This document shows, in pieces, positions 3,775 through 37,917 of a stretch of 38,368 nucleotides of DNA. The notes beneath the pieces were generated by a model. It had not been told where the DNA came from. It did not search any database and worked only from the letters and a program-made list of their open reading frames with translations. The stretch's first letter is position 1. Each line of letters begins with the position of its first letter. Source of the DNA: a virus; the IMG/VR virus record IMGVR_UViG_3300038619_000072, positions 1-38,368 of that record; one strand, written 5' to 3'. The translations under genes and the position numbers were made by a program.

Positions 3775-3917
3775 AGTTTCCGGGGGGTGGCTTGGGCGCG
3801 CTCTTTCGTGCGCTTTGCCGGCCGCCGCGCGGCGTTTCCCGACCGCTCGAGGTGGGCGAGCTACGCCAGCTTCCTGCAACAATCGACCGCATGCCGCAGA
3901 GGAAACCAGCCCCCTAA
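3771..3917 (+). CDS. Small hypothetical protein (48 aa)
   Basis: GTG 3771 overlaps the preceding TGA (GTGA), the linkage style used throughout this region. The product is 48 residues, rich in Gly, Arg and Pro, with no recognised domain. The TAA overlaps by 4 nt the end of the convergent recombinase gene. The only support is the overlap and an open frame, so it may be non-coding. Confidence 0.3.
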   Translation: MKFPGGGLGALFRALCRPPRGVSRPLEVGELRQLPATIDRMPQRKPAP

Positions 3918-4579
3918 CGCCGTTTCGTTTGCAACACTTTCGCGCCTGATTTTCGAGGGGATTGTTGCAGGGCCTTTTTGCGGGGCTTTGCGAGCTTCTC
4001 GAGCTTGTGGACCGCGTTCCGGATCGACGACTGGCACACCCCGTATTTCTTCTCGAGAGCGGACCAGCTCATGCCCGCTTTGCGGTCCTCATAGACACGG
4101 CCGCGCGGGAAGACACTCCAAGGGCGCCCCAGGATTTTTCCCTTGGCGCGCGCCGTCGCCAGGCCGGCTTTGGTGCGCTCCGAGATCCGGATGCGCTCCT
4201 GCTCCGCGATCCAGGCGAAGATGGCGATGACTAGCTCGCCCACCGGACCGGTGGTGCGGAAGTAGGGCTCGGTGTACGACTCGATCTCCACCCCATACCC
4301 GCGCAGCATCTTGATATGCTCGAAGGTCTTCGAGACGCCCTCGCGGGATAGCCGGTCCAGGGACCAGATCAGCACCACCTGGAACTCGCGCCGGCTGGCG
4401 GCCGCGAACATGGCCTGCAGGTGCGCCCGGCCGGCCGAGGCCTTGCCGCTCTCGTGGTCCACGTATTCGACCAGCTCCCAGTCGCGCTCGCCGGCATAAC
4501 GACGAAGCTGGGCAAGCTGGTTCAGGACGTCCTGGCCTTTATCTTTGGTCGAGACGCGCGCGTAAATCGCCGCCTTCAT
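3914..4579 (-). CDS. Serine recombinase (resolvase/invertase family)
   Basis: This 221-residue protein begins with the catalytic signature of small serine recombinases, IYARVSTKDKGQ, with nucleophile Ser10 and Arg8. WSLDRLSREG at 72-81 supplies the conserved Asp75/Arg76 and Arg79. A long helix with AEQERIRISERTKAGL (125-140) is the dimer helix, and the GKILGRP motif leads into a C-terminal HTH domain (about 163-195) with SSIRNAVHKL. A basic tail follows. The family cuts and rejoins DNA at short paired sites through a phosphoserine link; members act as resolvases, invertases or transposon enzymes, and larger ones as integrases. It is the last gene of the leftward 6,307-3,914 operon, 28 nt after the HNH gene. 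It could invert or resolve a phage segment or be cargo. No clear crossover-site pair was found next to it. Confidence 0.93.
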   Translation of the reverse strand: MKAAIYARVSTKDKGQDVLNQLAQLRRYAGERDWELVEYVDHESGKASAGRAHLQAMFAAASRREFQVVLIWSLDRLSREGVSKTFEHIKMLRGYGVEIESYTEPYFRTTGPVGELVIAIFAWIAEQERIRISERTKAGLATARAKGKILGRPWSVFPRGRVYEDRKAGMSWSALEKKYGVCQSSIRNAVHKLEKLAKPRKKALQQSPRKSGAKVLQTKRR

Positions 4580-9508: not shown

Positions 9509-12500
9509 TTATAACTGGCCGAGAGCCGCCTGCAACTTCTGCAAAGCCGCGCGGCCGGCATCCAGCGCTTCCGGCGTCTGGTTGGGCTTTCGGAGCGCCG
9601 TCTCGGCCGTGGCTATCTTGGCTTGCAGACTGGAAACTTTCACCGCCCGGCTGAAGGCCTCGGCCGGCGCGGGGACATCGGGCTTGCCGAACATTCCAGG
9701 CTCCTCGCCGGCGCCGCGCGCGTCCTGCGTATAGATGCGCACCGCATTGGTCAGAATGTTCGCGCCGGTCCCTTGCAGATGCCGCGCCATGTCCACGACC
9801 TGGGCGTATTGTTGCTCCCCGAACAGGCCGCTCTGCTTGGCGAAGTTTGCGAGGCTCCTGCCCGAGCCGTGCGCCTGCGCGTCCTCGATCATGTCTATGG
9901 CCCCTTGCACGATGGGGGTGAGGCTCCATTGCGGATCGTTTTCGATCTGGGCCAAGGGCGCGGCCATGCGCTCCAGTTTGTTGAGGACGGACGGCGCCGT
10001 GCGGTCGATTTGCGCGGGATCGCGGAAGAAGCGGCCCAGCAGCGCCTTTGAGATGCGGGTCTTGGCGGCGGCCGTCAAGTCGCCGTCTGAGATATACGCG
10101 GCGGATTCCTGGGAGTTGATAGCGCCGTCTTTGATGAGCTTCTGCAGTACGTCCGCGCCGCCCGGTCCACTCAGCATCTTCGAGAGAGTGGTGTCCGGGC
10201 CGCCCGCATCCAGGCGTCGCGCGATATCGTCCAGCGTGCTCTGCGAAACGCGGCGGGAGTCCGCGATGGACTTTTCCGAGGGGGTCAACGATGCCGTGGA
10301 ATCGTCGTTGAAGTCGGTGATGGCCTGCTGCCTGGTTTGGGCCTCGGTGAATTGCGAGTCCGGAATCTCGCGGACCAGGACGGGCTGCTTCATGCCGGCG
10401 ATCTCCGCTGGGTCGATGCCGAAGTGCGAAGCGTTCTGAGTCAGCAGATCGCGGTACGCCTGCGCGCCCGCCGGGTTGTTCGCATAGACCCGCTGCAAGA
10501 TCATGCCGCGGCCGTTGCCGCCCAGCGCGTTGCCGTTGGAGTCGACCACGATGGGGCCTTCGTTGGCGGTCGGGTTGGTGTTGATCAGGCGCGCTGGGTT
10601 AAACCGCGCGGGCGTGGCGCCGTTGAAAACCTTGGCTTGGTTCTCGGGCTGGGAATAGTCGCGGTCGTTGACCGGCCCATACTTCGGGTTCGACCCGAAG
10701 CTGAGCCCGTTGTGTGAGGTTTGGACGTCCGCCAGCTCTCTCAGCCCATATTCGGCTTGGTAGAGGCGGCCGGTGTCGTTGTTGAGCGAGACGGTTGTTT
10801 GGCGGCCTGTTCCTTGGCGGCCAGCCGGGCTAAGGCTTGCTGCCGGGCCCACTCCAGCCGCTTCATGTGCCGCTTGCCCTGCTCCGTCTCCGGTTCGAAG
10901 ATTACTGTCGTTTGCATTGGTGGGTCCTGATGGAAGAGTAGTGCTTTGAGGCGTGTTTTGCAATGGCTCTGAGGTACTTAAACCGGGGCCCGAAGTACCG
11001 GGACGCATCCAGGGGCGCGGGTTGGAGGCTTTGTCCAAGCCTGGAGGAACACCTGGTCCTGGCGCCTGGTTGCCCGCCAGGCTATCCGGTAGGGCCGGGG
11101 GAGGACTGCCGGGACCGCCAGTCGGTGCCGGCGGTGTCGGATCTTCCGGAGGCCCCGCCGCCCGCGCGAGCTGCGATTTCAGCAGCCCGGTCTGACCAGG
11201 ATTGACGGGAGGGTGCTCCATCGCCCCCAGCAGCAGACGCTGGCCCCATGGCGAGAATAAGAGCTTGCTGCCCGCCCAGCCGGCCGCCCACCGTAAAGGA
11301 TTCAAGCTGGCCGCCTGCTGCACTAGCGCCGTACCTGACGGGTTCGGATTGTCCGCTACCATCTTGGCACCGAGGAAAAACTTATCGAGAGACGCGCGCA
11401 GGCCGGGATCTTGAAACAGAAGCGACTTCGTCTCTGGCCCGAGGTCCTGCCACTGGCGCAGAATGCCCTGCGCCCGCGAAAAGCCGCCCTCCTGGGTGGC
11501 CTGGCCGAATAGCTTGTCGAGATACGCCCGCCCCACCTGCGGCAGGACGTCGGGCGCCTGGTCCGCAATCTTGCGCAGGAAGTCGATGCCTGTGTCCTGT
11601 TTCCAGGTCAGCTTATTGAACGTCTGCACGGGCTCAGTGCGGAGCTGGTCCGCGATGTCCGCTACTTCCATTTTGGAGGCGTGCGTCGCGCGCCCCTTTT
11701 GTAGCGCCGCGAGGTTGTCCGGTCCCAGCTTCGCCACGGCCGCATTGATTTCCTGCTCGAGCGGTTGGATTACACTCGCGGCTATTCCCTGGCTGGTGTT
11801 GCGGAGGTCCGCCGACGGGGCTTCGCGCCCCATGGCCTTCAGTCCGCCGAGGCCTTGCTCGGCCGCCTGTGCCGGGATGAAATCCGGCCCCTTCAGAATG
11901 TTACTGACCGCTTGGTAGCCCGCGCTCGATGCGCGATCGCTTGCCGGCATCCACTGCATGCTGTCGTACACCGGCTGCAATTGCTGTTTGATGCCCCGGA
12001 CGTCCACCGGAGCCTGAACATCGGCCATCACGGGGACGCTCTCGGTCTTTCCGGTAGCCCTGCCGACGTTGTCGGTGACCGGCCGCTGCATGGTCTTCAC
12101 CGGCACGCTGACCGTGTTGGCCGGGTCGTCGGCTCCCTGCCACGCGCCGGAATAGGCCGCATCCTCCTGCAGCTTCAGGCCTGCGATGTTGCTGTCGAGC
12201 TTCGCCCTGGCGGCCCGCCCCGCCGATTCCAGAGTGGAGACAGTCGGGCTGGCTTGGCCTGCCAGATTGGCAGACACACGTTGCAGGCCTTCCTCCGTGC
12301 TGCTGGCGAAATCCGCGGCCTGCGGTGCGCCCAGCGGTGAACTCGCCGCCACCGCCTCCGCGGATTTGATGAACTTATTTCCGGTCTGCGTGCCGACCTT
12401 GACCGGCACGTCCTGGCCGGCCAGGTAATCCACGGCGCCCTGCTGCACTGGGTTTAGCGTGCTCTTCACCTGCATCGCTCGCCTGGCGGAACCTACAACC

Positions 12501-13009
12501 GCCCCTGCCTTCGCCAGCGCGACGTCTGTCCCCTTTTGCAAGGCAAGATTCTGCAGCGCGTTGGTGGCCTCGGCCGACGCGTCAGTCAGTGCGCCATTCA
12601 CATCGCCGCTTGCCGCCTTTTTGACGGCGCCCAGGAAGGCGACTGGCTCCATCGTTGGGATACCGCCCGTCAGGTAAGAGAAGGCATTTTTGACACCTCC
12701 CGCATAGTCGCCCTTCCCAAAGGCATCGACGGCTGCCTTGCCGGCCGCGGCCGTGTTGTTCGCTACGGATTCAATTGTGTCGAGGGGATGCAGAATTGGA
12801 TGCGCCATGGCCGCGATCCTCGCCGCCGGGTTCACCTGGTGCCAGAAACTCTGGAGCATGCCGCCGACCGTGCTGGTATCATCGGGCTTCGCCGGCACCG
12901 CGGCCGACGCCGAGGCCGGCGCTGAGATCGGGTCTCCGAATTGGTTCACGCTGCCGGCAGCCGGCACCGTGATTGGGTCTCCGAATTGGTTTACAGCAGG
13001 GCTGGCCAT
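9509..13009 (-). CDS. Large internal virion protein with DdrB-like ParB domain
   Basis: At 1,166 residues this is the largest protein. The N-terminus has the octapeptide VNQFGDPI twice (residues 6-13 and 21-28). Long Ala-rich helical regions follow (about 60-560), then a Pro/Gly/Thr-rich linker (about 600-740). Residues about 743-880 match the DdrB-like ParB-superfamily domain: YGLRELADVQTSHN, then NPKYGPVNDRDY, then GPIVVDSNGNALGGNGRG, and VLVREIP. This domain is known from phage and plasmid DarB/DdrB-type proteins, which travel in the capsid or protect DNA. The last ~290 residues are helical. It closes the late operon, after the internal protein genes, so it is probably packaged and ejected with DNA. 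ParB-type CTP/nuclease activity is only possible. No ordinary tail-length family fits better. Confidence 0.8.
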   Translation of the reverse strand: MASPAVNQFGDPITVPAAGSVNQFGDPISAPASASAAVPAKPDDTSTVGGMLQSFWHQVNPAARIAAMAHPILHPLDTIESVANNTAAAGKAAVDAFGKGDYAGGVKNAFSYLTGGIPTMEPVAFLGAVKKAASGDVNGALTDASAEATNALQNLALQKGTDVALAKAGAVVGSARRAMQVKSTLNPVQQGAVDYLAGQDVPVKVGTQTGNKFIKSAEAVAASSPLGAPQAADFASSTEEGLQRVSANLAGQASPTVSTLESAGRAARAKLDSNIAGLKLQEDAAYSGAWQGADDPANTVSVPVKTMQRPVTDNVGRATGKTESVPVMADVQAPVDVRGIKQQLQPVYDSMQWMPASDRASSAGYQAVSNILKGPDFIPAQAAEQGLGGLKAMGREAPSADLRNTSQGIAASVIQPLEQEINAAVAKLGPDNLAALQKGRATHASKMEVADIADQLRTEPVQTFNKLTWKQDTGIDFLRKIADQAPDVLPQVGRAYLDKLFGQATQEGGFSRAQGILRQWQDLGPETKSLLFQDPGLRASLDKFFLGAKMVADNPNPSGTALVQQAASLNPLRWAAGWAGSKLLFSPWGQRLLLGAMEHPPVNPGQTGLLKSQLARAAGPPEDPTPPAPTGGPGSPPPALPDSLAGNQAPGPGVPPGLDKASNPRPWMRPGTSGPGLSTSEPLQNTPQSTTLPSGPTNANDSNLRTGDGAGQAAHEAAGVGPAASLSPAGRQGTGRQTTVSLNNDTGRLYQAEYGLRELADVQTSHNGLSFGSNPKYGPVNDRDYSQPENQAKVFNGATPARFNPARLINTNPTANEGPIVVDSNGNALGGNGRGMILQRVYANNPAGAQAYRDLLTQNASHFGIDPAEIAGMKQPVLVREIPDSQFTEAQTRQQAITDFNDDSTASLTPSEKSIADSRRVSQSTLDDIARRLDAGGPDTTLSKMLSGPGGADVLQKLIKDGAINSQESAAYISDGDLTAAAKTRISKALLGRFFRDPAQIDRTAPSVLNKLERMAAPLAQIENDPQWSLTPIVQGAIDMIEDAQAHGSGRSLANFAKQSGLFGEQQYAQVVDMARHLQGTGANILTNAVRIYTQDARGAGEEPGMFGKPDVPAPAEAFSRAVKVSSLQAKIATAETALRKPNQTPEALDAGRAALQKLQAALGQL

Positions 13010-31536: not shown

Positions 31537-31601
31537 TCCTGGTCGCCATACCAGCGCCAGTAGGCCAGCCAGGTTTCTTCGTCCGACCTGGGATAGCGCA
31601 T
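31533..31601 (-). CDS. 22-residue peptide gene, coupled on both sides
   Basis: ATG 31601 shares a base with the upstream stop (TGATG), and its TGA overlaps the next GTG (GTGA), so it is a linked cistron rather than a random frame. The peptide is Trp/Tyr-rich (WLAYWRWYGD) and acidic at both ends. No function can be assigned; this may be a translational relay. Confidence 0.45.
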   Translation of the reverse strand: MRYPRSDEETWLAYWRWYGDQE

Positions 31602-31975
31602 CAGTCGCCGCCCCTCTCGCCGCGTTCGCCGCGTGCGCCGCGTTCGCCGCGTGCGCCTGCTGTGCCTGGTGTGCCTGGTGTGCCTACGCCGTCGAGGAAG
31701 CGGTCCAGGCGGTTGCGGACGCGCTCCAACTCGATCTTCACGTCGGCGCGCATGCGCTCCAACTCGGCCTTGACGTCGATCAGTTGCGTGGATACCGTCC
31801 CGATCAGTTCAGTCTTGCCCTTCAGCGTCGAAACGTCTTTTTCGAGGGCGATGACACGGTCTTCCCGCTGGCTCCATTCGCGCTCCTGGCGGGACGAGAA
31901 GCGCATCGCCGCGACCAGCAGCACCAACAGGTTGACGCTGGGGACCACCGCGGCAAGCCAGATGTGCCAGTCCAT
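31601..31975 (-). CDS. Membrane-anchored coiled-coil with short collagen-like tail
   Basis: This 124-residue protein has an N-terminal span (WLAAVVPSVNLLVLLVAA), a long coiled coil (QEREWSQREDRVIALEKD to RVRNRLDRFL), and a C-terminal Gly-X-Y tract of eight triplets (GTPGTPGTAGARGERG and so on) rich in Arg-Gly. It is built like a trimeric surface stalk, anchored in the inner membrane. A spanin or lysis role is possible but no outer-membrane partner is seen. The Gly-X-Y tail ties it to the two collagen-like genes nearby. Confidence 0.65.
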   Translation of the reverse strand: MDWHIWLAAVVPSVNLLVLLVAAMRFSSRQEREWSQREDRVIALEKDVSTLKGKTELIGTVSTQLIDVKAELERMRADVKIELERVRNRLDRFLDGVGTPGTPGTAGARGERGARGERGERGGD

Positions 31976-32273: not shown

Positions 32274-33014
32274 CTATGGAATGCCGGGAGGCAGCACCAG
32301 CGATGCGAACTGCCCGCCGCTGAATAGCGCCCATGGGTTGCCGGGTGAGCCGTTGGGGCACTCCACCGCGGCGTTGAGAGACGTAAGGCAAATCCAGGCG
32401 CAAGCCATGAAGTAAACGATGTCGCCGGGCAAGTAGATCACGCCCAGCGTGTTCATCCACGCGCCCTGCCAACGGAAGCCCTGGCCAGCGGGACCCTGCA
32501 ATCCCGCGACGCCTTGCGCGCCGGTTGCTCCGGGAATATCCGACACGCCGGGTGGTCCTTGTGCGCCCGTGGGGCCGGTGATGGAGTCGCCCTCGGGTCC
32601 CATCGGACCCATGATTCCTTGCGGGCCTTGCGCGCCTGTTGCGCCTATCGGACCTGCCGCGCCACAAGCGCCTTGGGGACCTTGCGCGCCGGTCGGGCCG
32701 GTCGATCCTTGCGCTCCGAACCCAATCGGGCCTGCGGGACCAGCGGGTCCTGGTAAGCCTGTAACGCCCGTCGCGCCCGTGAGGCCTGTCAGTCCGGTGT
32801 TGCCTTGCGGACCTGCGATACCTTGCGCGCCGGTTGTACCAGCCGGACCGGGAGAACCTGGATTGCCCGCGTTTCCCGCCTGTCCTTGCGCGCCTGTTGG
32901 GCCTTTCAGCGCCGCGTACTGCGCGAGCACGGGGCCAAGCTGCGCCCAGGTGGCAACTGCGGTGCTGCCGTCGCTCATGACCAGCATTATGCCGGTTGCG
33001 GTGGGGGTGGCCAT
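32274..33014 (-). CDS. Collagen-like protein with C-terminal sugar-binding-like module
   Basis: After about 36 N-terminal residues, with VATWAQLGPVLAQYAALKG, a long run of Gly-X-Y triplets spans roughly residues 37-175 (over 40 triplets, with a few breaks; GPTGAQG, GPAGPAGPIG, GPMGPEGD). The C-terminal ~65 residues, FRWQGAWMNTLGVIYLPGD and a later W, have the outline of a CBM5/12-like chitin-binding module (GAW, Y, GD, Y, then a final W). It would form a trimeric fibre with terminal sugar-binding heads, as phage fibre and bacterial collagen-like proteins do. There is no signal peptide, so this one is probably a virion fibre. Confidence 0.85.
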   Translation of the reverse strand: MATPTATGIMLVMSDGSTAVATWAQLGPVLAQYAALKGPTGAQGQAGNAGNPGSPGPAGTTGAQGIAGPQGNTGLTGLTGATGVTGLPGPAGPAGPIGFGAQGSTGPTGAQGPQGACGAAGPIGATGAQGPQGIMGPMGPEGDSITGPTGAQGPPGVSDIPGATGAQGVAGLQGPAGQGFRWQGAWMNTLGVIYLPGDIVYFMACAWICLTSLNAAVECPNGSPGNPWALFSGGQFASLVLPPGIP

Positions 33015-34063: not shown

Positions 34064-34134
34064 GGGAGTCCCGCGCGCCCGGTGCCGGATGGCGGCGCCG
34101 CCTCTCGGCAGTGGTTCCGGACTGCGGGACTCCC
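34064..34134. promoter_or_regulatory. 71-bp element bounded by an 11-bp inverted repeat
   Basis: GGGAGTCCCGC (34064-34074) and GCGGGACTCCC (34124-34134) are perfect inverted repeats. The right arm directly abuts the LuxR-type gene's stop codon. Inside lies the 12-bp palindrome GGCGGCGCCGCC (34091-34102). In RNA it would fold into a long branched hairpin, so it could be a terminator, processing site or control element between the regulatory cassette and the structural genes downstream. Confidence 0.6.
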
Positions 34135-34401
34135 TCACTCCCGGGGGGAGATCGGAAAAGCGTGTTGTTGGGCCTGGCGGGTCGCGCGGACCATAGACTC
34201 GAACGGCCGCGGACCTTGCGCCAGAAGCCTTAGCTGCATCAGGTGACCGCGATGGCGCGCGCCCGTGCGCGCATACACCTCGGACACGTAGCCGCGGACG
34301 GTCTGGTCCGACAGGTGCATTTGCTCCGCGATTTCCGAATTCGTGAGACCCGCGACCACCAGGTCTGCAACCTTGCGGAGCTGGGGGCTGAGTGGGGTCA
34401 T
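34135..34401 (-). CDS. LuxR/GerE-type HTH protein
   Basis: The 88-residue protein is essentially one HTH of the LuxR type: SPQLRKVADLVVAGLTNSEI then AEQMHLSDQTVRGYVSEVYA, with recognition helix DQTVRGYVSEVYAR and a short tail. LuxR-type HTH domains bind DNA as dimers. This one has no receiver or sensor domain, so it should act through abundance or with a partner. It starts with ATGA overlapping the cell-wall-enzyme stop and ends at the 71-bp hairpin element. It is a paralogue of the interrupted gene at 36,784. Confidence 0.85.
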   Translation of the reverse strand: MTPLSPQLRKVADLVVAGLTNSEIAEQMHLSDQTVRGYVSEVYARTGARHRGHLMQLRLLAQGPRPFESMVRATRQAQQHAFPISPRE

Positions 34402-34796
34402 GCTGTCTCTGTAGTGGCCGTTTCAGGCGCTAAATCGCACATCACCACCAGGCGGCGATCGGCGCCGATGGCTACCGCGTGCCGGGCCGGCTGATTCAGG
34501 ACGATGCAACCTTCCGAGGCGTCCATGTCGCCGATGAAGCGCGAGGCGTGGATGAAAAATCCGGAGCGGCCGCACATTTCGTTCCCGGCGTCGGGATTGA
34601 GAAACATAGCCTCGGGCCCGAGGTGCCCATCGTGATAGGCGGTTCCAAGGGTGTAGCAGCCGCGCGGCAGCGGGCCGACGTTATGCACGTCCTGCATGGC
34701 CGGATTGTTCAAACCCGGTCCATTTCCCGCGTAGCCGGTGCCGATCGGCGTGCCGTCGTCGTGGGTCAGTTGCCCGGTGGATTGGTTGTAGATCAT
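34398..34796 (-). CDS. L,D-transpeptidase/Tlde1-like cell-wall enzyme
   Basis: The 132-residue protein has the shape of the DUF2778/Tlde1-type L,D-transpeptidase domain: GYAGNGPGLNNPAMQDVHNV near the start, then GPLPRGCYTLG, and the catalytic FFIHASRFIGDMDASEGCIV with His83, Ser94 and Cys97 (H ... S-x-G-C). These proteins cut or exchange crosslinks in peptidoglycan. In a phage this would be a candidate endolysin, or a virion or envelope enzyme. No signal peptide is seen, so it would need a holin or an export path. Both ends overlap neighbours (ATGA). Assigned from motif. Confidence 0.72.
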   Translation of the reverse strand: MIYNQSTGQLTHDDGTPIGTGYAGNGPGLNNPAMQDVHNVGPLPRGCYTLGTAYHDGHLGPEAMFLNPDAGNEMCGRSGFFIHASRFIGDMDASEGCIVLNQPARHAVAIGADRRLVVMCDLAPETATTETA

Positions 34797-35326
34797 GCGG
34801 CGAGCTTCGAGCGAAGCGTTGCGATCGCTTCTTTCTGGAGCTGAGAGACGCGACTTTCGTTCACGTTCATCTCGCGGCCGATGTCCAGGTGCGAGCGGTC
34901 GCGGTAGAAGCGCTCCCGGATCACTTGCGCCAGGCGCGGCTTGAGAGTATCCACCGCGGCGCGGATCTCGGCGTGGAGTGCCTGTCTCTCCTGGTCCGCC
35001 GGCACAGCCAGGGGCCGGTCGTCGACGTCCTCGCGGTCGTCCGCGGGGGCGCGGCCATCGAGCGATACGGTTTGCGGCTCGATGGCCGCGCCGCGGTGCA
35101 TCTCATTCTCGTCGCGGAGCTCGTCGATCACGCGGTACCGGACGCGGTCCCACAGGAAGTGCCTGCGATCCCCGCTGCGCCTGGCGTCCCACGTCGGGAG
35201 GACCTTGAGCAACACCAGATAGGCGCAGGCAACCAGATCGTCCGCATGCACGCGGCTGGGCGTCTTCTTCAGCAATGAGAGGCCCGCACGGCGCGCCAGG
35301 TCCAGGTCCGCGGCGTCCACCGTCAT
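34793..35326 (-). CDS. FliA-like sigma factor
   Basis: From ATG 35326 (overlapping the previous stop by ATGA) the 177-residue protein has sigma region 2 at about 25-75 ([20 protein letters not shown], then [13 protein letters not shown], echoing the GxxIDELR pattern of the sigma-28/WhiG group). Region 4 lies at about 113-175 ([20 protein letters not shown] with [20 protein letters not shown]), a very clear FliA-type region 4. The middle (residues 82-112) is an acidic linker with little sign of region 3. Sigma-28-type factors direct polymerase to a subset of promoters. A phage copy here would switch transcription, probably for late genes. An open frame further upstream is non-coding shadow. 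Confidence 0.85.
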
Positions 35327-35883
35327 GGGAACAGGTACAGAGTGATGGGCACGCTGCCCCATGCGAGCGGTGAGACATCCGGCTGGTGGCCGGTGTTGGA
35401 AGTCACCAGCGAAAGGTAATAGCTGGTTCCGTAGCTCACCACGACGTTTGTGCCGTAATTGCCGCCCGCGCTCCATGCGCCGGCATAACTGAGTCCGCTG
35501 CCCGCGCTGCCCTGTGGCCCTGCTGGGCCGGTGATCGATTGACCAGGTACGCCCTGGATGCCTTGCGGGCCGGTTTGTCCGGTGGATCCGGTTGCGCCGG
35601 TGACGCCTTGCGGTCCAGCGGGTCCGGTTGCTCCGATGCCGCCCGGTACGCCGGATGGTCCGGAGCTGCCGATTCCGGGAGGTCCTTGTGCGCCAGGTGC
35701 GCCGGCAGGCCCTTGCGGGCCGGTGATCGACTGCCCAGGTGCGCCAGCCGGTCCGGGAGGTCCAGCGAGGTTGCAGGTGGTCGCGCCGTTCACGGTCGTG
35801 CAGGTAAGCGTGATGCTGATGGTCGCGGTCTGCGCGCAAGCGGCGGCGGCGGTGAGGATGAGGGCGAGAAAAAGTGTTTTCAT
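35323..35883 (-). CDS. Exported collagen-like protein
   Basis: ATG 35883 overlaps the upstream stop by ATGA; an ATG three codons earlier is possible. A signal peptide ([17 protein letters not shown], cleavage before QTAT) precedes a short beta part with two Cys ([16 protein letters not shown]). A Gly-X-Y tract spans about residues 41-127 ([21 protein letters not shown] and so on). The C-terminal ~55 residues have the CBM5/12-like outline [11 protein letters not shown], then YY, and a final W. It would be an exported, trimeric, sugar-binding fibre. Signal peptides on phage collagen-like proteins are unusual. Confidence 0.82.
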
Positions 35884-36194
35884 GCGGCGCAATCCAGGAC
35901 TACCGCGCGGAAGACGTCCCGTGTGTGGTTAGGGAGGTATTTCAGTTGCCAGATGGGTGAGTGGTTGGCCACTTCCTCGCGGTACGAGTAGGCTAATGGG
36001 TTGCCGAAGTGAGCGTCCAGCCTGGTGTCGTCGCCTTCGTCGTGCACCTGCAATTCGACGATTTTATGGTCCTGCCGGCGACGGATGACTTCCACGTTCG
36101 AGTGTGCGGCGAGCCGTTTGGCGCGCGAGGGGTCGCACAGTTCGAGACACCGGAAGCCGTTCATCAACGGGATTTTTTCCGAGGATTGCAACAA
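35880..36194 (-). CDS. Hypothetical protein opening the regulatory cassette (104 aa)
   Basis: Two starts are possible: TTG 36194/36197 with AGGAGAG upstream (the good ribosome site), or ATG 36164 with a weak site. The product has [37 protein letters not shown] and an [16 protein letters not shown]-terminus. It might be a small DNA- or RNA-binding protein; no family is recognised. The stop overlaps the next ATG (ATGA), so it belongs to the cassette. Confidence 0.6.
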
Positions 36195-36259
36195 GGCGAG
36201 ACTCTCCTGTCATGCGGACCCGAGGTAATTTAGATCGCCCCGCCGATCAGGATGTGACT

Positions 36260-36676
36260 TTACGCCGCTTGCTTCAGTACAGCCAGTGGCTTCAGATGAC
36301 GCGGGCCGGTCCGGTCGTTCACCGTATACAGGCCTGCCGCGTCTTTCGGATCGGGCAGCAGCTTCAGAATAATGGCGCACGCTTCCAGGAACCTGGCAGC
36401 GCCCCAGAGCTTCCGGAGCTTCTTCTTCCCGCTGATCGAGACCACCCGCTGGTTGTCCCGCGCGGTGATCCGGATGTCGTACTGGACGCCATGCTCGATG
36501 GTTTCCTCGTCTGCCGGCAGATCCTTATGCCAGCCCAGGATGACCTCCCGGAGCGCTTCCTTGCGCCGTTTCCGGGATTCGTAGTGGTGCTCCGCGTCGA
36601 GCCGCGCCAGGTCGCTGTCGAGCTGGCCGTATTCGTCTACCGCCGCGCACTTCAAAACATCGAGAAGGGCAGTCAT
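36260..36676 (-). CDS. Hypothetical protein (138 aa), leftmost divergent partner
   Basis: ATG 36676 begins the block read leftward from the divergent control region. The protein has a helical start (LLDVLKCAAVDEYGQLDSDLAR), a charged basic helix (YESRKRRKEALREV), then YDIRITARDNQRVVSISGKK (beta) and ARFLEACAIILKLLPDPKD. A small alpha/beta fold is suggested, no family named. It probably shares the promoter region of the late operon. Confidence 0.7.
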   Translation of the reverse strand: MTALLDVLKCAAVDEYGQLDSDLARLDAEHHYESRKRRKEALREVILGWHKDLPADEETIEHGVQYDIRITARDNQRVVSISGKKKLRKLWGAARFLEACAIILKLLPDPKDAAGLYTVNDRTGPRHLKPLAVLKQAA

Positions 36677-36744: not shown

Positions 36745-36764
36745 GGTGGGCTATATAACCCACC
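36745..36764. promoter_or_regulatory. 20-bp palindromic operator candidate
   Basis: GGTGGGCTATATAACCCACC is palindromic with a single mismatched pair (C36751/A36758). It lies between the divergent genes 36,676 (minus) and 36,784 (plus). It overlaps a weak rightward promoter, TTGGCA (36727-36732) with TATATA (36752-36757). It is a good site for a dimeric regulator. Confidence 0.55.
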
Positions 36765-36783: not shown

Positions 36784-37320
36784 ATGCCCTCCAAACCTGC
36801 CATAAACGATCTCTCGCCCCAGCTTCGGCGCATTGCGCGGCTGCTGGCCCAAGGTCTCGCAAACGCCGAAATCGCCAAGCGCATGAAGCTCGCGCAGTAG
36901 ACCGTGAAAGGCTATGTCTCGGAAGTGTACGCCCGCACGGGCGCGCGCAACCGGGTAACCCTCACCCTGGCAGTGCGAGAGCATCGCGCCTTTTGCGCCC
37001 CTCTGGCACCCATCAAGCTCCTGCTGCTGCACTACATCTCGCATCGCGGAGGCGCGAAAGAGTTCGTCCGGATTTCCGGCGCCGAATTCGCGGCCGACAT
37101 GGAGCGGGCCCAGAGGCGTGTGGAGGGCTATCTGCTCGTTCTCGACCGGCGAGGTTACATCGAGCGCTTACGTTCTGACGGCTGGGAGAAGGGGAAGGGG
37201 AAAGGCGGAGCACCTGGCTACCGGCTGACCGAACTTGGCCGCAAGGAGATCCGCAAGCACACGGGATTGACCGCCCTGGTGCGGGCGGCTTCAGCGCGCG
37301 CGCAGACGGCTGGCGCATGA
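36784..37320 (+). pseudogene. LuxR-type HTH + winged-helix protein with in-frame TAG
   Basis: The combined frame encodes a LuxR-type HTH (SPQLRRIARLLAQGLANAEI, then AKRMKLAQ, TAG, TVKGYVSEVYARTGARN), a paralogue of the 34,135-34,401 protein. A second domain from about residue 75 (APIKLLLLHYISHRGGAKEF, VEGYLLVLDRRGYIERLRS) looks like a winged helix. The TAG at 36898-36900 replaces the Gln found in the paralogue (DQTVR versus TAG-TVK), one base from CAG. A GTG at 36904 could restart but would drop half of the HTH. TAG terminates at least three other genes, so a simple mutation or regulated read-through is likelier than recoding. Confidence 0.7.
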
Positions 37321-37913
37321 GGCGTGCTATGGTGTGCAGGCAAGCGCGCGGGGGTTTAGAACTTGTTCTTGCCAGCCTGCACGCCTTGCAAAGGGAGGTT
37401 TATGCCGAAGACGGAAGTAAAACCGCAAGTAGAGTGGTTGACGAAGAAGCAGGCCGCCGCGCGGCTCGGGTTGGGAGCGCGCCGCACACTCGACCTAGCG
37501 CAGAGCAAGGCGATAAAGGCGGAGCGCTTCCGGGACCCCGAGAGCCATCAGTGGACCGTGCGGTTTCAAGCCGCGGACATCGACCGCTATCTGGAGGAGC
37601 GCCGCAAGAAAGCCGAAGCGGAGCCGCCCGCGCAGGGTGTGCGCGCAATGCAGAACGGCGCGATCGCAGTGCGTGCCAGCCTTGCGTCCGATACCCAGCA
37701 GCAGCCGCCCAGCCCACACGATTGGCTCACGCTGGCGGAAGCAGCCAACGCGACGCACGGGCTTCCGGAGTCTTTTCTGCTGCAATTGATTCACGCCGGC
37801 GAGTTGCCCTGTCTCGACGTGGGCGTGCGGCCGGGCGGTAGATACCGCGTCAAACGCCGCGATTTAGAGGCTATCGACGGCGCCCGCGTGGAGCGCGCGC
37901 AGACGGCTGGCGC
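37296..37913 (+). repeat. 21-bp direct repeat at two gene ends
   Basis: GCGCGCGCAGACGGCTGGCGC plus one following base context is present at 37296-37316 and 37893-37913, at the very ends of two adjacent genes, both ending in Arg-Ala-Gln-Thr-Ala-Gly-Ala and a stop. The feature spans both copies. Confidence 0.85.
37331..37385 (+). promoter_or_regulatory. Leader hairpin before the two-HTH gene
   Basis: GGTGTGCAGG (37331-37340) pairs with CCTGCACGCC (37376-37385) with one G-U wobble, and CAAG (37341-37344) can extend the stem to CTTG across a bulge. It sits just before the AAGGGAGG ribosome site at 37391-37398. It may control initiation of the downstream gene. Confidence 0.45.
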
Positions 37914-37917
37914 GTAA
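37402..37917 (+). CDS. Two-domain excisionase/MerR-type HTH protein
   Basis: ATG 37402 is fixed by the strong AAGGGAGG site. The 171-residue product has two winged-HTH modules in the excisionase (HTH_17) style: residues about 10-70, WLTKKQAAARLGLGARRTLD then WTVRFQAADIDRYLEERRK, and about 110-165, WLTLAEAANATHGLP then GRYRVKRRDLEAIDGA. This layout occurs in phage excisionases and in small regulators that bend DNA. It follows the interrupted LuxR-type gene, so the module looks like a lysogeny/excision switch. No integrase is adjacent; the serine recombinase at 3.9-4.6 kb is the only recombinase in the window. Confidence 0.75.
   Translation: MPKTEVKPQVEWLTKKQAAARLGLGARRTLDLAQSKAIKAERFRDPESHQWTVRFQAADIDRYLEERRKKAEAEPPAQGVRAMQNGAIAVRASLASDTQQQPPSPHDWLTLAEAANATHGLPESFLLQLIHAGELPCLDVGVRPGGRYRVKRRDLEAIDGARVERAQTAGA

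Follow-up and report, generated by a model that had tools for sequence, protein, structure and literature searches.

Late sigma factors encoded by phages include T4 gp55 and SPO1 gp28 and gp34, and to our knowledge, none of the known phage sigma factors is linked to cell-wall genes. Phages phiEco32 and 7-11 are also described as encoding a sigma factor (PMC8948821). Among enzymes that act on the cell wall, Tlde1a, a type VI secretion system (T6SS) effector of Salmonella, is an L,D-carboxypeptidase/transpeptidase with the catalytic motif H...(S/T)HGC (PMC9638812). A gene of the same domain family (DUF2778) has been found in Burkholderia phage JC1, where gp41 immediately precedes the gene for the large terminase, apart from the lysozyme/lysis cassette of this phage, and by its coordinates shares a 4-nt overlap with the next gene (PMC9144972). 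Given that JC1 has DUF2778 besides a separate lysis cassette, a Tlde1 protein need not be a lysis enzyme. Here, a viral genome is described in which a compact sigma factor gene is joined to a Tlde1-domain gene within a cassette of ordinary parts in an unusual combination.

Genomic setting and layout of the cassette

The window analyzed spans an entire IMG/VR virus record (38,368 bases), whose portal and terminase matches identify it as a P22-like podovirus. Its minus strand carries a cassette of five genes in the order p1, collagen, sigma, Tlde1 and HTH (Table 1), followed on the 3' side by a 287-aa gene, a second collagen-like gene, small genes, and the genes for the small and large terminase, portal, scaffold and major head protein. 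An earlier note on this DNA had linked the five genes by 4-nt ATGA overlaps, and all four junctions were confirmed, each adjacent pair sharing exactly ATGA. The same note had put the cassette at the head of the structural operon; it lies near the head and is not first, as up0 is located one gene ahead, with a gap of 65 nt to p1. Family scans matched the names previously assigned (Collagen, Sigma70_r4, Tlde1_dom and GerE) and left the small first gene p1 without a family, and the 71-bp structured element noticed at the cassette end corresponds to the hairpin of Table 1. The description of the sigma factor as FliA-like applies to region 4 and not to the rest of the protein, which lacks region 3 and scores below the TIGR02479 cut-off.

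Overlaps of four nucleotides as such are frequent in phages. Among the listed minus-strand junctions, just five are at -4, four of them consecutive in the cassette. As a run of at least four such junctions arises in only 0.36% of permutations of the operon junctions, their clustering in the cassette is beyond chance. Elsewhere in the record, a protein with a Resolvase N-terminal domain (123.5 bits) is encoded at 3914-4579 on the minus strand, opposite to the other left-arm genes, and a 1,166-aa protein with a ddrB-like ParB domain, comparable to phage polyvalent proteins, at 9509-13009 on the same strand. Rfam and tRNA scans of the record gave no matches.

Table 1. Coordinates of the cassette genes, their neighbors and the flanking elements in the window.
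Feature	Position	Strand	Remarks
Second collagen-like protein	32274-33014	-	37% identical to cassette collagen; without signal peptide
71-nt hairpin, 11-bp outer stem	34064-34134	-	Begins immediately after HTH stop codon
GerE/LuxR-type HTH protein, 88 aa	34135-34401	-	PF00196 42.8 bits (cut-off 23.5)
Tlde1-domain (DUF2778) protein, 132 aa	34398-34796	-	PF10908 56.6 bits (gathering score 30.1)
Short sigma-70 family protein, 177 aa, regions 2 and 4	34793-35326	-	Sigma70_r4 49.7 bits, r2 20.5 bits
Collagen-like protein, 186 aa	35323-35883	-	Pfam Collagen 32.5 bits
p1, 104 aa, no family	35880-36194	-	TTG start, AGGAGAG upstream
Conserved non-coding block, 31 nt, candidate promoter/operator of cassette	36217-36247	-	Aligns with corresponding L002 gap
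up0, 138 aa, no known function	36260-36676	-	Opens minus-strand operon; homologues in L002, L021, weakly L023
20-bp palindrome, candidate operator	36745-36764		In divergent promoter region, between both arms
Divergent GerE-type regulator	36784-37320	+	Broken by in-frame TAG at 36898-36900

Proteins of the cassette

The sigma factor belongs to the sigma-70 family (TIGR02937, 68.2 bits against a cut-off of 42.9), and in Pfam its region 4 scores above and its region 2 below the cut-off. Membership of the FliA/WhiG family (TIGR02479) was rejected at 64.8 bits against a cut-off of 189.6; the best stretch on the protein covers profile positions 158-223 only, corresponding to region 4, and a length of 177 aa leaves no room for region 3. 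By both sequence and PDB search, region 4 is closest to FliA, which was the best PDB match. The architecture of ECF (group 4) sigma factors, which consists of regions 2 and 4 only and usually comes with a cognate anti-sigma factor, fits the cassette protein, with p1 as a conceivable anti-sigma factor, yet region 4 of the protein is FliA-like; judged by its sequence, the protein is an ECF-sized sigma factor with a region 4 of FliA type. A tblastn search of 50,697 phage records found no homologues, and none appeared at E 1e-20, a strict cut-off that makes this weak evidence, in 396 cellular genomes from the phylum of an Acidobacteriota MAG. As the sole query of viral contigs, the sigma factor likewise found no relatives. 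In a sigma-70 promoter scan, sites were no more numerous than in shuffles, and no promoter motif was demonstrable for the cassette sigma factor.

The Tlde1 protein has no apparent signal peptide. In an alignment of 11 phage proteins, H83, S94, G96 and C97 are invariant, and the full motif H...(S/T)HGC is absent, the second His (of SHGC) being E, D or K in all 11. The AlphaFold model (pLDDT 74) has L,D-transpeptidases as its top four PDB matches, with probabilities of 0.80-0.90 and weak E values of 0.025-0.13, and in comparison with viral models it resembles Tlde1 proteins. No other peptidoglycan enzyme was recognized among the genes scanned in this possibly incomplete record. Homologues among the 50,697 phage records belong to Erwinia, Dickeya, Yersinia and Citromicrobium phages, and one IMG/VR scan yielded 107 confirmed Tlde1/DUF2778 relatives.

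The first gene, p1, has a homologue that is 52% identical and lies immediately 5' of sigma in the related record L002; no homologue was found in the four cellular genomes checked, and the structure model (pLDDT 41) is too poor to use. The cassette collagen comprises a signal-peptide-like N-terminal start, a collagen repeat and a C-terminal module, of which residues 130-177 match phrog_14646. The C-terminal modules of the two collagen-like proteins in the window are alike. The cassette collagen gene was found in no relative; it is missing from L002, where the site is readable and p1 leads straight to sigma, and it is probably an insertion and not a core part. The HTH protein has homologues in L020 (67% identical) and L002 (51%). 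Its identity as a LuxR quorum-sensing protein or response regulator was ruled out, as its 88 aa hold the HTH only, with no N-terminal ligand or receiver domain.

Flanking elements and the divergent regulator

The stretch holding the hairpin (85 nt) folds at -54.8 kcal/mol (z -4.9), better than 200 of 200 shuffles, and the corresponding stretch in L020 folds less clearly (z -1.85). Comparison of the window with L020 over 21 pairs gave 18 identical ones, two with compensatory changes and one that no longer pairs. An intrinsic terminator was rejected, as no U tract follows and AAATCCAAACGAAAG comes next; since the U tract is missing, the hairpin is more likely to be a processing or mRNA-protecting element. 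At the other end, the conservation of the upstream block rests on two sequences, the window and L002, whose local alignment score of 30 was equaled by none of 5000 shuffles and by one of 5000 pairs of real segments drawn at random. A motif upstream of p1 also has exact copies in three further viral contigs besides L002, which are read as chance because those contigs looked unrelated. Together, the block and the hairpin suggest a bounded transcription unit.

Beyond up0, the divergent regulator and the cassette HTH have nearly identical recognition helices (TVKGYVSEVYARTGAR and TVRGYVSEVYARTGAR, respectively). The TAG that breaks the regulator occupies the position of a Gln in the cassette HTH. 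Recoding of TAG was ruled out, as TAG ends the portal gene and several others; because it serves as an ordinary stop in the rest of the record, the TAG in the regulator must come from a nonsense mutation, from a minority variant or from an error in assembly. The candidate operator GGTGGGCTATATAACCCACC occurs once in the window, and none was found in 100 shuffles at 3 mismatches. As the recognition helix is shared, the cassette HTH and the divergent regulator may both bind this palindrome. The pattern was not found in L002, whose HTH has a different helix. Two neighboring plus-strand regulator genes in this area have almost identical last codons (...AQTAGA, stop), at 37300-37320 and 37895-37917, which make a short direct repeat of roughly 20 nt.

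Conservation of the cassette in related phages

Relatives of the cassette were retrieved through the Tlde1 query and not through sigma. In L020, whose large terminase is 89% identical, the record starts within sigma; the end of sigma is joined by ATGA to Tlde1, HTH follows 12 nt later, and the same hairpin comes next. In L002, the order is a divergent HTH_17 gene, up0, p1, sigma, HTH, two small genes and Tlde1, with p1 and sigma joined by ATGA despite the missing collagen. In a phylogenetic tree of Tlde1 proteins, strong support unites the window with L002 and L020. A second group with such support contains L007, an 87.8-kb record, together with L003, L006, L015 and L018. In L007, Tlde1 precedes sigma with a GTGA overlap, so that the order is reversed, and the pair occupies a different genome position within the structural region. 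That the sigma-Tlde1 pair is kept although its order and genome position differ supports a functional unit.

In the sister records of L007 (L003-L006), sigma is reduced to its region-4 end, and sigma is therefore dispensable there. The remnant lies right behind Tlde1 at L006:6348-6494 and L005:3220-3366, an apparent decay in place. L023 encodes a nearly full-length FliA/WhiG-like sigma factor (TIGR02479, 175.8 bits, near the cut-off of 189.6) and a second sigma factor at the corresponding place, with a divergent HTH_17 gene just ahead of them and an up0-like gene behind. Between its two sigma genes, at the late-operon head, are two genes with a twin-arginine-like start (RRGFL; L023:2193-3100). 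Overall, Sigma70_r4 scored above the cut-off in six of the 50 records searched (47 with Tlde1), and beside Tlde1 only in close relatives; the majority of Tlde1 phages have no sigma nearby. The position of HTH and its overlap with Tlde1 vary among relatives.

The earlier note had named conservation of the five families in the same order as its test. In the nearest relatives, sigma, Tlde1, HTH and p1 do occur together, with a varying order and with ATGA couplings that are partly kept, and collagen is seen in the window only. The single five-gene timing device with surface display that it envisaged is accordingly narrowed to a smaller module of sigma and Tlde1, plus HTH and p1, given that collagen was not found in relatives and sigma is decayed in L003-L006. 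In this lineage, a single run of genes holds p1, sigma, Tlde1 and the GerE HTH, and the elements flanking it are conserved. The sigma-Tlde1 pair is the recurrent association, accompanied by p1 and HTH in the nearest lineage.

A candidate late-control module and its alternatives

The cassette is tentatively interpreted, at somewhat less than even confidence, as a clade-specific module for late control and wall-enzyme production near the late-operon head of a P22-like podovirus lineage. Its timing function is inferred from anatomy. Transcription would start in the gap above p1 and give one mRNA, which would end or be cut at the hairpin. The compact sigma factor would direct host RNA polymerase onto late phage promoters. 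Late in infection, stem peptides of the peptidoglycan would be edited or cleaved by the enzyme of Tlde1 fold, whose synthesis in the cytoplasm would keep to a ratio fixed by translational coupling. The HTH-only protein, with the same recognition helix as the divergent regulator, could act as a feedback regulator at an operator between the divergent arms. This interpretation is favored by the four clustered ATGA junctions, the arrangements in L020, L002 and L007, the upstream block and the L023 sigma genes, as well as by a predicted Tlde1 fold that matches L,D-transpeptidases and Tlde1 proteins and by the absence of another peptidoglycan enzyme among the genes scanned. It is weakened by the small number of relatives with the pair, the sigma decay in L003-L006, the unstable HTH position and Tlde1-HTH overlap, the hairpin without a U tract, the lack of a sigma promoter motif, and the location of the JC1 DUF2778 gene outside the lysis cassette. 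A bolder form, in which a movable two-gene module couples the compact sigma factor translationally to the L,D-transpeptidase-fold enzyme and the HTH-only protein and the divergent regulator compete for one operator, is rather improbable; if true, a late transcription switch and a wall enzyme would be made together by a movable module.

Ordinary phage mosaicism is a serious if doubtful alternative to the late-control module. Sigma, enzyme, HTH and collagen would then be independent accessories among tightly packed small late genes with no joint function, as might be expected from the absence of collagen in L002, the different orders in the window, L002 and L007, the decay of sigma alone in L003-L006, the frequency of 4-nt overlaps in phages and the many Tlde1 phages without sigma. 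However, the sigma-Tlde1 adjacency survives a changed order and place, each time with its own overlap, the p1-sigma ATGA is retained in L002 without collagen, and the flanking non-coding elements are conserved. The position of Tlde1 as the sole recognizable peptidoglycan enzyme among the genes scanned also fits a lysis module, with Tlde1 as endolysin, a gene with transmembrane and coiled-coil segments (31601-31975) as holin or spanin, and sigma timing the lysis genes only. A transmembrane gene follows soon after Tlde1 in L002, and annotated endolysins show similar folds, weakly. Such a module is nevertheless unlikely: the DUF2778 gene of JC1 is outside its lysis module (PMC9144972), small transmembrane genes are only slightly enriched beside Tlde1 (16% vs. 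12%, weak evidence because many Tlde1 genes escaped the rough gene caller used), bond cleavage by Tlde1 is a prediction, and the record may be incomplete. Least probable is an early or delayed-early unit for lysogeny or host takeover, in which sigma and HTH act on the divergent-promoter switch and wall editing by Tlde1 blocks superinfection. The cassette does adjoin divergent regulators and a candidate operator, and the record contains a resolvase-type recombinase, but the strand and direction of the cassette are those of the structural genes, and the L007 pair is inside the structural region.

Comparison with known systems

Like the P22-like podoviruses with portal phrog_156 and an Sf6-like small terminase, the window carries, 3' of the cassette, genes for the portal, scaffold, major head and head closure proteins; cultured members share less than 60% identity with it, and the sigma homologue was not found in them. 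The window protein resembles Tlde1a in its Pfam Tlde1 domain, its predicted L,D-transpeptidase-like fold, and its conserved His and Ser-x-Gly-Cys, whereas Tlde1a keeps the second His of (S/T)HGC where the phage proteins have E, D or K, and the phage genes are without a secretion-system context (PMC9638812). JC1 gp41 is of the same DUF2778 family and also terminase-proximal, but this phage carries a lysis cassette of its own, and no sigma factor is mentioned in the paper (PMC9144972). Erwinia phage Yoloswag encodes a DUF2778 protein of the same family, with no sigma or HTH annotated beside it in the region viewed. If a sigma factor were repeatedly linked to a gene that acts on peptidoglycan, late transcription would be tied to wall attack in a simple and testable way, and the widespread but unexplained DUF2778/Tlde1 genes of phages would gain a possible role. 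As with T4 gp55, SPO1 gp28/gp34 and the sigma factors of phiEco32 and 7-11, the window encodes a protein of the sigma family, which would turn the RNA polymerase of the host toward phage promoters. Unlike these, its sigma factor is ECF-sized, has a region 4 nearest to FliA, and is encoded in the late operon beside a predicted peptidoglycan enzyme.
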